Assembly (NCBI GenBank): GCA_030649895.1
Contig: JAUSEX010000058.1
Location: 1-32,902 of the forward strand
DNA length: 32,902 bases
Reading direction: 5' to 3'
Origin: Candidatus Omnitrophota bacterium
GTDB lineage: Bacteria > Omnitrophota > Gorgyraeia > Gorgyraeales > Gorgyraeaceae
Every line of letters begins with the position of its first letter. The first letter of the stretch is position 1. A program made the translations under genes and the position numbers. Positions 18,623-26,488 of the stretch are shown piece by piece. The notes beneath the pieces were generated by a model. It was not told where the DNA came from. It saw only the letters and a program-made list of their open reading frames with translations, and did no database searches.

Positions 18623-18663
18623 AAGGTCCTTCGGCTTTGCTTCGCAAATTTAGGAGGTTACGC

Positions 18664-19095
18664 ATGATTACAGACATTCAGGTTGCATCTCGATTATTTC
18701 TTGCTGCGGCGCTTGGCGGGATCATAGGTTTTGAAAGGCAGAAGCATAACAAAAGAATAGCCGGCCTAAGGACTCATATACTTGTAACCGTAGGCTCTGC
18801 CCTTATAATGCTTGTTTCGATATATCTATTTGAAGCCTATGCTGGAAAAGCGCCTGTGGATCCTGCGAGAATAGCCGCAGGAGTGGTGACTGGTATAGGA
18901 TTTTTAGGCGCAGGTACCATTATCCGTTCTGGTGAAAACGTGCAGGGGCTTACTACAGCGGCAAGTCTATGGACTGTCTCAGGCATAGGATTGGCAGTAG
19001 GATGCGGTTTTTATATAGCAGGCTGCACCGCCAGTATTATTACGCTCGCAACCTTGTATCTATTGAGAAAAATCCCGATAGAGGACAAGCAATAG
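18664..19095 (+). CDS. MgtC/SapB-family inner-membrane protein
   Basis: 143 residues from ATG 18664, chosen because AGGAGG lies at 18652-18657, six bases upstream. A TTG at 18637 would add nine basic residues and has no ribosome-binding site. Four hydrophobic segments: about 7-23, 38-55, 75-92 and 104-134. Family motifs GGIIGFERQ (about 18-26), AGLRTHILVTVGSALIMLVS and GIGFLGAGTIIRSGENVQGLTTAASLW are all present. MgtC proteins are linked to magnesium homeostasis and F-ATPase regulation; short forms without the cytosolic C-terminal domain, like this one, are common in environmental bacteria. It is followed 15 bases later by the bactofilin fusion, suggesting co-transcription. Confidence 0.9.
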   Translation: MITDIQVASRLFLAAALGGIIGFERQKHNKRIAGLRTHILVTVGSALIMLVSIYLFEAYAGKAPVDPARIAAGVVTGIGFLGAGTIIRSGENVQGLTTAASLWTVSGIGLAVGCGFYIAGCTASIITLATLYLLRKIPIEDKQ

Positions 19096-19110: not shown

Positions 19111-19620
19111 ATGCTAAGACGCGATAAGCAGGAAAAAAAGATTTTAGATGTTGATGCCAGCATGCAGGGAACTCTAACGTTCAAAGATCCTGTGAACCTA
19201 AGGATAAACGGCAGTTTCGAAGGCAGGCTTGACACAAAAGGCAGTCTGGTGATAGGCGAAGATGCTTCTATTCTCGCGGATATACATGGCGACGAAATGA
19301 TAATAGGCGGAAAACTTACAGGCAATATTGTTGCTTCAGGCAGCTTGAAAATTCTTTCTACGGCCCATATTGTAGGCGACATAACTACGCCTAGCCTAAG
19401 TGTTGATAAAGGCGCTGTTATTCACGGCAAGTGCCAGATGCTCACAGGCAAGGGTAATACTTTTAATATAGAAGAGCTCGCGAGATATTTGGAGGTAGAG
19501 GTCTCTAATATACTTGACTGGGCAAAATCAGGCAAGATCCCTGCTTTTAAAGAAGGCGATGACTGGAAATTCGAACGGCCAAAAATAGAAGAATGGATAG
19601 CTAAAGAAAAAACGAAGTAA
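19111..19620 (+). CDS. Bactofilin fused to excisionase-type helix-turn-helix
   Basis: 169 residues. About 10-112 is a bactofilin (polymer-forming cytoskeletal, right-handed beta-helix) with short repeats ending in G: MQGTLTF, INGSFEGRLD, GSLVIGEDASILADIHG, IIGGKLTGNIVASGSLKIL, AHIVGDITTPSLSVDKGAVIHGKCQM. About 117-165 is a MerR/excisionase-like winged HTH: FNIEELARYLEVEVSNILDW, then SGKIPAFKEGDDWKFERP and IEEWIAKEK, matching the form x-eeLAxyLxVsxxxVxxWxxxGkiPaxkxGxxWrFxxxxIexWi. Bactofilins form filaments, usually membrane-associated; the added domain predicts DNA or protein binding along the filament. The ribosome-binding site AGAGGAGGG is six bases before ATG 19111. The next gene encodes another HTH of the same type with a membrane anchor. 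Domain calls are firm; the joint function is inference. Confidence 0.87.
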   Translation: MLRRDKQEKKILDVDASMQGTLTFKDPVNLRINGSFEGRLDTKGSLVIGEDASILADIHGDEMIIGGKLTGNIVASGSLKILSTAHIVGDITTPSLSVDKGAVIHGKCQMLTGKGNTFNIEELARYLEVEVSNILDWAKSGKIPAFKEGDDWKFERPKIEEWIAKEKTK

Positions 19621-19628
19621 TAAACGAG

Positions 19629-19710
19629 ATTCTTCTAGACCGAAGAATAACATGACCTGAGCTTGTCTAAGGATATTGTTCGAGCGAGGTTCCGAATATA
19701 CCAGGTCGGG
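19629..19710 (+). repeat. MITE-like family relative (copy C), partial, with hairpin
   Basis: ATTCTTC (19629-19635) / GAAGAAT (19642-19648) is a perfect 7-bp hairpin. Downstream ATATTGTTCGAGCGAGG (19673-19689) matches the terminal repeat of the dispersed element, and AGATTCTTCT-GAC is shared with copy B. The full element is not intact here. It fills the gap in front of the tail-anchored HTH gene. Confidence 0.5.
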
Positions 19711-19723
19711 AAATGTTGAAGCT

Positions 19724-20023
19724 ATGATGAAACGATTTTTGACAATAAAAGAGGCGGCGGGTTACCTGGGTATTTCCGAGGAAGAGATGGGTAACCTGTC
19801 AAAGACCCGTCAGGTTATCGCTTACAAGATAGGAGGCATATATACCAGGTTTAAGGTAGACGACCTGGAGGCATATCGCAGGAAAGGCATAACCAAAGGC
19901 AATAAGGAGTATAATAAAAATATTTTTGACAGCGCCAAAGATTTTCTCTATTTTAATGATTTTTACATATATTCCAGTATCGCAATAGCCGTAATACTTT
20001 ATTTTATATTCAAAAAACCATAA
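19724..20023 (+). CDS. Tail-anchored excisionase-type HTH protein
   Basis: 99 residues from ATG 19724 (19727 is also possible). A TTG at 19676 would start inside the repeat element and is rejected. About 4-52 is a MerR/excisionase-like HTH: RFLTIKEAAGYLGISEEEMG, then TRQVIAYKIGGIYTRFKVDDLEAYRRKG. A charged linker (KGNKEYNKNIFDSAKDFLYF) leads to one hydrophobic segment at the extreme C-terminus (about 79-96, YIYSSIAIAVILYFIF) ending FKKP. This is the layout of a tail-anchored membrane protein with a cytosolic DNA-binding head. It directly follows the bactofilin-HTH gene and precedes larB by three bases. Function unknown; a role in tethering DNA or the bactofilin filament to the membrane is inference. 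Confidence 0.75.
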   Translation: MMKRFLTIKEAAGYLGISEEEMGNLSKTRQVIAYKIGGIYTRFKVDDLEAYRRKGITKGNKEYNKNIFDSAKDFLYFNDFYIYSSIAIAVILYFIFKKP

Positions 20024-20026
20024 AAA

Positions 20027-20770
20027 ATGCATTCCGCAAAATATTTAAAAAAAATACTGACAAGGCTTTACGCTAAAAAGATATCTGCGGCAGAGGCCTT
20101 TATAGAGCTTAAAAATCTGCCTTATCAAAATATGGAATTCGTCAGGCTGGATCACCACAGGGCTATCCGTAAAGGTTTTGGAGAGGTTATATATTGCGAA
20201 AATAAAACTCCGGAACAGGTAAAGAAGATAACAGAGGTCCTTTTGAGGCATAAGAACCCTCTTTTGCTCACGCGCGCCGCTAAACCTCTCTATGATTACT
20301 TGAAGAAGTATTTCCCGGTATTAAAATATAACGACGCAGGAAGGATTATATACTTAAAAAGAGGCGGATTGAAAAATAAGAAGATGGTTTTAATATTGAC
20401 GGCTGGCACAAGCGATATCCCCGTAGCTGAAGAAGCCAGGATTACCCTGGAGGTCATGGGGAACAGGGTGAAGGCTATTTACGACGTGGGCGTTGCCGGG
20501 ATACACCGCTTACTGGACAAGCTTCCTGAAATTTCAAAAGCCAATGTTATCATAGTGGTGGCAGGCATGGAAGGCGCGCTTGGAAGCGTGATAGGAGGCC
20601 TTACCGATAAGCCGGTTATTGCAGTGCCTACAAGCGTTGGCTATGGCTCCAGTTTCAAAGGTATTGCGCCTTTATTGACAATGATGAATTCCTGCTCGCC
20701 GGGAGTTACCGTGGTGAATATAGACAATGGATTCGGCGCCGGTTATTTCGCCAGTTTGATAAATAAATAA
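20027..20770 (+). CDS. larB: LarB, pyridinium-3,5-biscarboxylate mononucleotide synthase
   Basis: LarB carboxylates and hydrolyses NaAD in the first step of nickel-pincer nucleotide (NPN) cofactor synthesis, the cofactor of lactate racemase-like enzymes. 247 residues: an N-terminal LarB-specific part with LDHHRAIRKGFGEVIYCENKTPEQV (about 41-65) and a PurE-like C-terminal domain (about 115-247) with LTAGTSDIPVAEEA, YDVGVAGIHRLL, VVAGMEGALGSVIGGL and PVIAVPTSVGYGSSF. It could be misnamed AIR carboxylase, but the N-terminal block supports LarB. It starts three bases after the HTH gene and is followed by a LarC domain. LarE and a LarA-type enzyme are not in the window. Confidence 0.9.
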   Translation: MHSAKYLKKILTRLYAKKISAAEAFIELKNLPYQNMEFVRLDHHRAIRKGFGEVIYCENKTPEQVKKITEVLLRHKNPLLLTRAAKPLYDYLKKYFPVLKYNDAGRIIYLKRGGLKNKKMVLILTAGTSDIPVAEEARITLEVMGNRVKAIYDVGVAGIHRLLDKLPEISKANVIIVVAGMEGALGSVIGGLTDKPVIAVPTSVGYGSSFKGIAPLLTMMNSCSPGVTVVNIDNGFGAGYFASLINK

Positions 20771-20823: not shown

Positions 20824-21246
20824 ATGAAAAATAAATTTTTGAAAGACGCCATATACGTTGTAGAGACTAATATTGACGATATGAGCCCTGTTATATACGA
20901 GACGGTTTTTGAGCAATTATACGGGGCTGGCGCGTTAGAGGTGTTTCTTACGCCTGTCCAGATGAAAAAAATAAGGCCGGGGATTTTACTTACGGTGCTG
21001 ACCCCAAAAAATAAATTGGCGAAAATAGCAGAAGTGATTTTCAGGGAAACAACCAGTTTCGGCATCAGATACCATGAAACCGGCAGATTGAAGTTGATTA
21101 GAAAAACAGAGGTCAATAGCGCGCGCTGCGGAATAAATATGAACAAGGGTTATATCGGAAAAGAGCTTGTCAGGGTTTCTCCTGAATATAGCGATTGTCG
21201 TAAAATAGCCGCCAAGAAAAAAACCTCGCTTAAGAATATTATATGA
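20824..21246 (+). CDS. larC: Stand-alone C-terminal domain of LarC (LarC2-like)
   Basis: LarC is the CTP-dependent nickel insertase that completes the NPN cofactor. The 140 residues match only the C-terminal half of the family: VVETNIDDMSPVIYETVFEQLYGAGALEVFLTPVQMKKIRPG (about 12-53), then VIFRETTSFGIRYHE, the LIRKTEV strand, and the C-terminal VRVSPEYSDCRKIA. The N-terminal half is absent: only 53 bases separate it from larB. In Lactobacillus plantarum larC is split in two ORFs joined by ribosomal frameshifting; here no first half is near. The start ATG 20824 has no Shine-Dalgarno sequence. The upstream gap holds GACTCCG/CGGAGTC (20780-20786, 20808-20814). It overlaps the next gene by four bases. 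Confidence 0.82.
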   Translation: MKNKFLKDAIYVVETNIDDMSPVIYETVFEQLYGAGALEVFLTPVQMKKIRPGILLTVLTPKNKLAKIAEVIFRETTSFGIRYHETGRLKLIRKTEVNSARCGINMNKGYIGKELVRVSPEYSDCRKIAAKKKTSLKNII

Positions 21247-25441: not shown

Positions 25442-26488
25442 ATGAACGATAATAGCAATAAAGCCATAGAAAGAAAACGCTTTATTCGGATAAAAATAAA
25501 GCTTTTAGTTGCCGTGTGTTTATTTTTAGGATTTTTTGCAGGATTATTTCTAGGAATTAATTATTACAGGATACCTACCAGGAACGAGGGGCTTGGGATG
25601 ATACGCTTGAGGGGATATAAATTCATAAGCCCGTTACTTGACTATGAGGCAAAATCTGAATTAGGAAATAAAGAGCTAGTTATTTTAAAGGTAACTCTTG
25701 AAAAACTTGTAAATGCTAAAATCGAAGAAAATGAAGCTATTTATGTTTCTGTATATTTTCGCGATCTGCTTAACGGGCCATGGTTTGGAATCAATGAACA
25801 CGATAATTTTGCGCCTGCCAGTCTTTTAAAAGTGCCTGTAATGATCGCATATCTTAAGCAGGCTGAACAAAACCCTGAAACACTGCAACGTAATATTGTT
25901 TATAATAAACTAATAGATGATATAAGTCAAAATATACATCCGGATAAGACGCTAAAATTTGAAGAGTCTTATAGCATTGAAGAGTTGATCCACAGGATGA
26001 TAACGTATTCTGACAATCTAGCGAAAGACCTGCTTATGAAAAATATTAACGAAGACGCTATTGATAAAGTGTATACCGATATGGGAATGATTATTCCCGG
26101 TATCAGAAAAGAAACAGACTTTATTTCCGCGAAGGAGTATGCTTCTTTATTCAGAATACTTTTTAATGCATCTTATTTGAATAGAGAAATGTCTGAAAAG
26201 GCGCTGGATATTTTAAGCAAAAAGTCTGATTTTGAGCTGGGGATACCGTCTGGAGTGCCTAAAGATGTAGTTATTGCCCATAAATTTGGAGAAAGAAGAA
26301 ATCTGGAAAACGGAACGGTTCAATTCCATGACTGCGGTATTGTGTATTATAAAGAAAGACCGTATTTATTATGCGTAATGACCTATGGCAGGGATCTTAA
26401 GGAGCTAAACGCTATTGTTGAACAAATCTCAGAGATTACTTACGAAACAATAGACAGATACTATAAAAGCGGCTGCTATAAAGTCTGA
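25442..26488 (+). CDS. Membrane-anchored serine hydrolase, class A beta-lactamase fold
   Basis: 348 residues: a basic N-terminus, one membrane segment (about 21-39, LLVAVCLFLGFFAGLFLGI) and an exported domain (about 80-340). The penicillin-interacting motifs are S127-LLK130 (in APASLLKVPVMIAYLK), S190-DN192 (in MITYSDNLAKDLL) and K281-FG283 in place of KTG. The ExxxN omega-loop glutamate needed by class A beta-lactamases is not seen between SDN and KFG, so a peptidoglycan peptidase or another hydrolase is more likely than antibiotic resistance. It starts three bases after gspH. Real substrates are unknown. Confidence 0.8.
   Translation: MNDNSNKAIERKRFIRIKIKLLVAVCLFLGFFAGLFLGINYYRIPTRNEGLGMIRLRGYKFISPLLDYEAKSELGNKELVILKVTLEKLVNAKIEENEAIYVSVYFRDLLNGPWFGINEHDNFAPASLLKVPVMIAYLKQAEQNPETLQRNIVYNKLIDDISQNIHPDKTLKFEESYSIEELIHRMITYSDNLAKDLLMKNINEDAIDKVYTDMGMIIPGIRKETDFISAKEYASLFRILFNASYLNREMSEKALDILSKKSDFELGIPSGVPKDVVIAHKFGERRNLENGTVQFHDCGIVYYKERPYLLCVMTYGRDLKELNAIVEQISEITYETIDRYYKSGCYKV

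Follow-up and report, generated by a model that had tools for sequence, protein, structure and literature searches.

A bactofilin fused to a C-terminal helix-turn-helix (HTH) domain and a small, tail-anchored HTH protein encoded by the adjacent gene constitute a module that extends throughout the phylum Omnitrophota, and the two genes are paired far beyond chance. When anchors were counted at E-values up to 1e-6 (255 genomes) and bactofilin-HTH proteins at E-values up to 1e-15 (243 genomes), thresholds whose difference leaves the resulting table approximate at its edges, 241 of 286 Omnitrophota genomes carried both genes, 14 the anchor only, two the bactofilin only, and 29 neither. Therefore, the bactofilin-HTH protein hardly ever occurs without the anchor. 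We propose that the pair is a RodZ-like membrane-cytoskeleton module, in which a bactofilin polymer is served by a dedicated tail-anchored membrane adaptor, and we give this proposal about an even chance of being correct.

The pair described here lies on the plus strand of a 32,902-nucleotide stretch of DNA from a Candidatus Omnitrophota bacterium (the window). An earlier note on this DNA had described a bactofilin beta-helix carrying an excisionase-like HTH at its C-terminus, an assignment borne out by profile and structure searches alike. The protein of 169 residues (positions 19111..19620) is the sole bactofilin above cut-off in the genome. Its core (19141..19437) matches Pfam family PF04519 over residues 11-109 (E=6e-25, 87.8 bits versus a family cut-off of 27.9), and its C-terminal domain (19459..19617), whose acidic recognition helix is EVSNILDWAKSG, matches HTH_17 over residues 118-166 (E=1.4e-9, 38.5 bits, above the cut-off of 27) as well as the NCBIfam excisionase domain TIGR01764 (9e-8). 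The NCBIfam model NF047737 (MADS MAD1 defense HTH) gives 46.9 bits, which is under its cut-off of 80 and so does not indicate membership in that family. An AlphaFold2 model built with 77 relatives (mean pLDDT 86) displays a beta-rich core followed by strand-helix-helix-strand-strand-helix. Among solved structures, the best Foldseek matches of the core are BacA (2n3d) and a Thermus bactofilin (6rib), in alignments that reach the C-terminal end of the core, and those of the HTH are BldC (6ama/6amk), RacA (5i44) and Xis (4j2n); the matches to 2n3d, 6rib and 6ama have weak E-values and probabilities of 1.00. CbpM is also among the fold matches. The N-terminal peptide MLRRDKQE (19111..19134) is possibly membrane-targeting, comparable to the MFSKKKK of other bactofilins (consensus from PMC12448750). 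By a cut-off of our own choosing, an N-terminal hydrophobic residue with at least two K/R, such a candidate peptide is present in 126 of 177 bactofilins (MLRRDKQEKK in the window).

The downstream gene (19724..20023) encodes a protein of 99 residues that combines an HTH of this type with a membrane segment at its C-terminus, again as the note had stated. It begins at ATG 19724, with an alternative start at 19727. Because its relatives have their N-terminus at the M of (M)MKRFLT, the 115-residue version with a TTG start in the list of open reading frames is not needed. The HTH_17 domain (19736..19885, residues 5-54; 2.9e-7, 31.1 bits versus a cut-off of 27) combines an acidic, variable recognition helix, the least conserved portion of the domain, with the invariant basic wing YKIGGxYxRFK. 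The C-terminal hydrophobic segment NDFYIYSSIAIAVILYFIF has a Kyte-Doolittle value of 1.58, and the C-terminal 19-mer is above 1.6 in 174 of 177 relatives; AlphaFold and hydrophobicity together place a transmembrane helix at 19955..20020, with few residues beyond it. Immediately before this tail anchor is the conserved juxtamembrane motif KDFLYFNDFYI (19934..19966), located where a short predicted helix meets the membrane helix. Its consensus is DFFYFNDFYI in most classes and DFWRFNNFYI in others, and among 157 distinct sequences its strict form is found in 116 and its generalized form in 149. A search of the genome for a second copy of FYFNDFYI yielded none with up to one mismatch, and matches with two mismatches were not clearly more numerous than those of a reversed-pattern control.

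The note's view that the two genes belong together, and its expectation that they would remain neighbors in related genomes, hold across the phylum. Specifically, 177 of 181 examined loci are adjacent same-strand pairs, and all 157 pairs that are distinct in sequence are adjacent, the smaller number arising because some genomes occur in both collections. The remaining four loci comprise two at a contig edge, one with adjacent genes that was caught by the overlapped-ORF filter (L271), and one with separated genes, in which the anchor still adjoins a larB-like gene (G292). In the GTDB family to which the window belongs, each gene is present in 18 of 19 genomes, and the genes are neighbors in all 17 genomes that have both on a contig. 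Among the bactofilin matches listed across the phylum, nearly all cover the HTH, which is kept over its full length. Of the two genomes scored as carrying the bactofilin only (G173 and G204), the first turns out, when searched with a more sensitive model, to encode an anchor-type HTH immediately downstream of the bactofilin, in a stretch that stops before any membrane helix. In a scan of the genome collection that used exact peptide patterns taken from Omnitrophota, the 80 best loci were titled Omnitrophota or merely 'bacterium', and they include the complete genome of Velamenicoccus archaeovorus. One entire family (f33; G167, G180, G207, G239, G256, G264, G281) has no anchor, and the six members tested also lack any bactofilin, possibly a natural loss that can be compared with cell shape.

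The genes are typically close together, with a median intergenic distance of 24 nt, gaps of 0-249 nt in relatives, and overlap at 10 loci. In the window the gap is 103 nt and includes a single copy of CCTGAGCTTGTCTAAGG (19656..19672), which resembles a common dispersed bacterial intergenic repeat and is probably an insertion that widened the gap relative to the phylum median. At loci where bactofilin and anchor share one frame, they are separated by in-frame stops. Readthrough to a fusion protein was considered and rejected because the linker sequence is not conserved.

Clustering of neighboring open reading frames in 64 indexable loci, with gene names taken from the genes of the window and from profile matches, yields a conserved same-strand block: (gatA) gatB - ctpA (S41 peptidase) - tsaD - mgtC - bactofilin-HTH - anchor - larB. 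The pair usually lies between tsaD-mgtC and larB, and in the window it is flanked by an mgtC-like gene (18637..19095, plus strand) and larB (20027..20770, plus strand). At some loci mgtC has been lost or replaced, and the pair stays together. The earlier note correctly placed the pair near mgtC and larB/larC, whereas the secretion ATPases that it also listed as context are not a general feature. Type II/IV secretion ATPases lie downstream in only 13 loci from close relatives (L085 and L089, for example), and for this reason we rejected them as part of the module; the proposed link to secretion or surface machinery is likewise not conserved.

Several other features of the window were noted. Downstream of larB, the reading frame at 20824-21246 covers just the C-terminus of LarC (profile positions 239-374 of 375), and no sequence for the N-terminal portion was noticed in the space separating this frame from larB, although locus L189 has a frame of 394 codons at this place. 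A serine hydrolase-like protein of the Beta-lactamase2 family (25442-26488; Pfam E 1e-42) adjoins a type II secretion G-like pseudopilin. At the opposite end (1-2604; ORF 418-2604), a frame open from the window edge encodes a tandem-repeat protein with repeats of about 39-43 residues, nucleotide spacings of 117 and 129, and a 45-nt core in 11 copies. Its Pfam matches (DED, SHOCT, others) include no significant single stretch and look spurious.

Does the filament carry DNA-binding heads, as the note had proposed? In BldC, bases are read by Lys26 and Arg30, phosphates are contacted by Thr27, Thr29, Trp31 and Lys33, the wing contains His46, Arg47 and Arg48, and the mutation R30A abolishes DNA binding (PMC5859096). 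Both sets of HTH domains were aligned to BldC along with 30 other HTH_17 proteins from Omnitrophota genomes as controls. The net charge of the recognition helix (BldC residues 24-35), averaged over the 157 distinct pairs, is -1.69 for the bactofilin (positive in 1 of 157) and -1.80 for the anchor (positive in 11 of 157), versus +2.43 for the controls (97% of 30 positive), which lean canonical because they were chosen as top-scoring HTH_17 matches. These differences from the controls have p-values of about 1e-17 or less, computed ignoring relatedness. The position of BldC Arg30 is occupied by Glu or Asp in 138 of 157 bactofilin HTHs and mostly by D/E in the anchors (K/R in 47 of 157). Controls keep Tyr29 in 29 of 30 cases and Arg/Lys30 in 25 of 30; the bactofilin HTH has lost both, and the mean charge of the whole domain is -3.3. 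This loss parallels that of CbpM, a MerR-fold protein that no longer has the DNA-binding Tyr/Arg and whose ligand is a J-domain (PMC4063869).

In this alignment, neither protein typically has the basic recognition helix and base-reading Arg/Lys of DNA-binding HTH_17/MerR-like domains. As far as sequence can show, the proposal of DNA-binding heads is therefore unsupported on the very point that the note had named as refuting it, the lack of a positively charged recognition surface, because the recognition helices of both HTHs are negatively charged on average. Neither domain looks like a DNA binder, and the data favor repurposing for protein binding. Since the charges needed to grip DNA are lost in both HTHs, attachment of the filament to the membrane is a likelier function of the pair than attachment to the chromosome. 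The wing of the anchor is basic (+3.5, the same as controls), such that weak, non-specific contact of the anchor with DNA or lipid may occur.

The residues that have been conserved instead suggest a possible contact between the two domains. In the head-tail dimer of BldC, residues F21, R22, V23 and W31 of the head pack on L11', E16', I40', T42', L43' and G44' of the tail (PMC5859096). By the same numbering, the bactofilin HTH conserves L21 (157/157), E22 (151/157), W31 (153/157), E/D42 (142/157) and E/D50 (126/157), and the anchor HTH conserves R48 (157/157), Y40 (151/157), I/V42 (145/157), G44 (147/157) and K/R50 (149/157). The bactofilin has thus kept a head of altered charge, and the anchor a tail that bears a basic wing. 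These faces are complementary, and on this basis the two HTHs may dock head-to-tail. A tandem AlphaFold model, read through the intergenic stops at loci with a shared frame (32 paired rows), folds the individual domains well and gives no confident arrangement between them (pTM 0.43). Mutual information with APC correction over 177 pairs (effective 128) places its top pairs in linkers, and linkers and phylogeny dominate the signal; the share falling in the bactofilin HTH is 0.36, versus 0.31 expected.

If the anchor serves the bactofilin, then why is it retained where the bactofilin is missing? The 14 anchor-only genomes (G025, G039, G046, G099, G161, G168, G185, G189, G203, G225, G260, G272, G273, G277) include representatives of two separate Omnitrophota families, f2 (genus g9) and f7. 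By gene names assigned from position and inspection, the first retains tsaD - mgtC - anchor - larB - larC with the bactofilin gone (L189, G039:C4:48400-54400), and the second has the anchor between tsaD and polA, with the bactofilin missing (L190, G272:C4:12400-18400). No bactofilin of any kind was detected in any of the 10 anchor-only genomes tested, and a search of anchor-only genomes for a substitute acidic HTH protein returned only matches with ordinary basic recognition helices. The anchor HTH keeps the same features in genomes without the bactofilin, and thus its conserved wing face is not explicable by the bactofilin alone. Because the anchor survives where the bactofilin is absent, it probably performs a separate task or has a second partner, and of the two proteins it is the bactofilin that seems to depend on the other.

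We hypothesize that the bactofilin core self-assembles into filaments, as is expected from its family and is true of all characterized bactofilins, such that each subunit would display an HTH-fold domain that binds protein and no longer DNA. Judging from a C-terminal helix with almost nothing after it, the anchor would be inserted in the inner membrane, leaving its HTH on the cytoplasmic side, and would be an adaptor dedicated to linking the filament to the membrane through direct contact. The simplest contact would be HTH-to-HTH docking, head-to-tail as in BldC dimers, with the acidic bactofilin face L21/E22/V23/W31 set against the basic wing face Y40, I/V42, G43, G44, R48 and K/R50 of the anchor (BldC numbering). 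The anchor would then resemble RodZ in its mode of action, the HTH of RodZ recognizing the MreB filament rather than DNA, and the system would presumably function in envelope or cell-shape organization. A RodZ-like arrangement of a filament and a matching membrane HTH seems the most economical reading of these observations. A bolder formulation, which we advance tentatively and think somewhat likelier to be wrong than right, is that a DNA-binding fold was duplicated and recharged into plug and socket, with acidic bactofilin HTHs docking on the basic wing of the anchor to form the first dedicated bactofilin membrane receptor and a phylum-defining system. In the 126 of 177 bactofilins that may have their own N-terminal membrane peptide, this peptide could bind the membrane without the anchor, and hence the anchor may localize or regulate the filament instead of being its sole attachment.

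The persistence of the anchor on its own lends some weight to an alternative that we regard as unlikely, in which each protein binds a third conserved component (for example, a protein of the envelope or of division) instead of the other, and the bactofilin is an optional extra in an assembly that was first built around the anchor. The anchor-only genomes retain the same gene block, and the juxtamembrane DFFYFNDFYI motif points to a further binding surface. However, no third gene is tied as closely to the pair, given that mgtC, tsaD and larB have metabolic or tRNA functions and can be separated from it. The order gatB-ctpA-tsaD-mgtC-bac-anchor-larB is conserved in full, which might instead mean that the two genes are functionally unrelated neighbors within a frozen block. 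This we judge improbable: the pair outlasts mgtC where mgtC is lost or replaced, the HTH charge has changed in the same way in both proteins, and the bactofilin is almost never without the anchor.

Hardly less improbable is the original idea of a filament with DNA-binding heads whose neighbor tethers either DNA or the filament itself to the membrane, thereby organizing the chromosome. HTH_17 is usually a DNA-binding domain, BldC and RacA, the latter a chromosome anchor, are among the closest solved HTH structures, the Omnitrophota anchor retains a control-like basic wing, and Myxococcus bactofilins scaffold ParABS via the DNA-binding adaptor PadC (PMC5703909). Against this stand the acidic recognition helices of both proteins, the lost Tyr29 and Arg/Lys30 and negative charge of the bactofilin HTH, and the poor conservation of the anchor recognition helix. 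The membrane-linked bactofilin polymer of that idea is plausible, and its DNA role is unsupported. We consider it very improbable that the anchor is a membrane-bound transcription regulator of the CadC/ToxR type, with the bactofilin HTH as a leftover. An HTH joined to one membrane helix is indeed the layout of one-component membrane regulators, but no sensory domain lies beyond the membrane in the anchor, whose recognition helix is both acidic and variable, and conservation as strong as that of the bactofilin HTH would not be expected of a leftover.

To our knowledge, very few Omnitrophota have been cultured and their cell biology is almost unknown. The two-gene module is present in about 84% of the sampled genomes of this phylum and is small enough to be rebuilt in E. 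coli. The note knew of no described system with this pairing, and we found none in the open-access literature, where searches of 5.39 million papers combining Omnitrophota with bactofilin or bactofilin with excisionase returned nothing. Likewise, no such fusion appears in the titles and abstracts of open literature on bactofilin, helix-turn-helix and DNA-binding. Little is understood of the way in which bactofilin filaments recruit their membrane partners (PMC12448750).

The closest parallel is the MreB-RodZ system, in which a filament protein is joined by a single-pass membrane protein whose cytoplasmic HTH fold binds MreB and itself, not DNA (PMC6946637); in the Omnitrophota pair this contact is inferred. 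Here, however, the filament protein is not an actin homologue and itself carries an HTH. Membership of the anchor in the RodZ family was considered and rejected: instead of the XRE-type HTH_25 and outer domain of RodZ, it has a MerR-like HTH_17 domain and ends at a membrane helix located at the extreme C-terminus. The anchor is a RodZ analogue, not a RodZ member. In Caulobacter, membrane-bound BacA is also accompanied by a membrane protein able to help with anchoring, PbpC, which replaces the membrane peptide of BacA when overproduced (PMC12448750). Yet BacA has no HTH and PbpC binds by a cytoplasmic tail, whereas the Omnitrophota proteins have related folded domains and adjacent genes. The BacNOP-PadC-ParAB system of Myxococcus resembles the pair in that a bactofilin lies adjacent to a gene for a protein with an HTH-like element, but PadC is soluble and binds DNA and ParA (PMC5703909), and the Omnitrophota proteins lack a basic recognition helix.

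The winged HTH proteins BldC, Xis and RacA share the fold by sequence and structure search, and the BldC interface serves as our docking template, although their basic recognition helices bind DNA and those of the Omnitrophota pair are acidic. CbpM illustrates how a MerR-like fold becomes protein-binding through loss of the DNA-contacting Tyr/Arg (PMC4063869), but its ligand is a J-domain and it lacks a membrane helix. What is new here is a module spread over a whole phylum, in which a bactofilin bears a fused HTH, repurposed on our reading, and has a tail-anchored protein as its proposed dedicated partner. After RodZ and CbpM, this pair offers a further, testable case of an HTH fold turned from DNA binding to protein binding.
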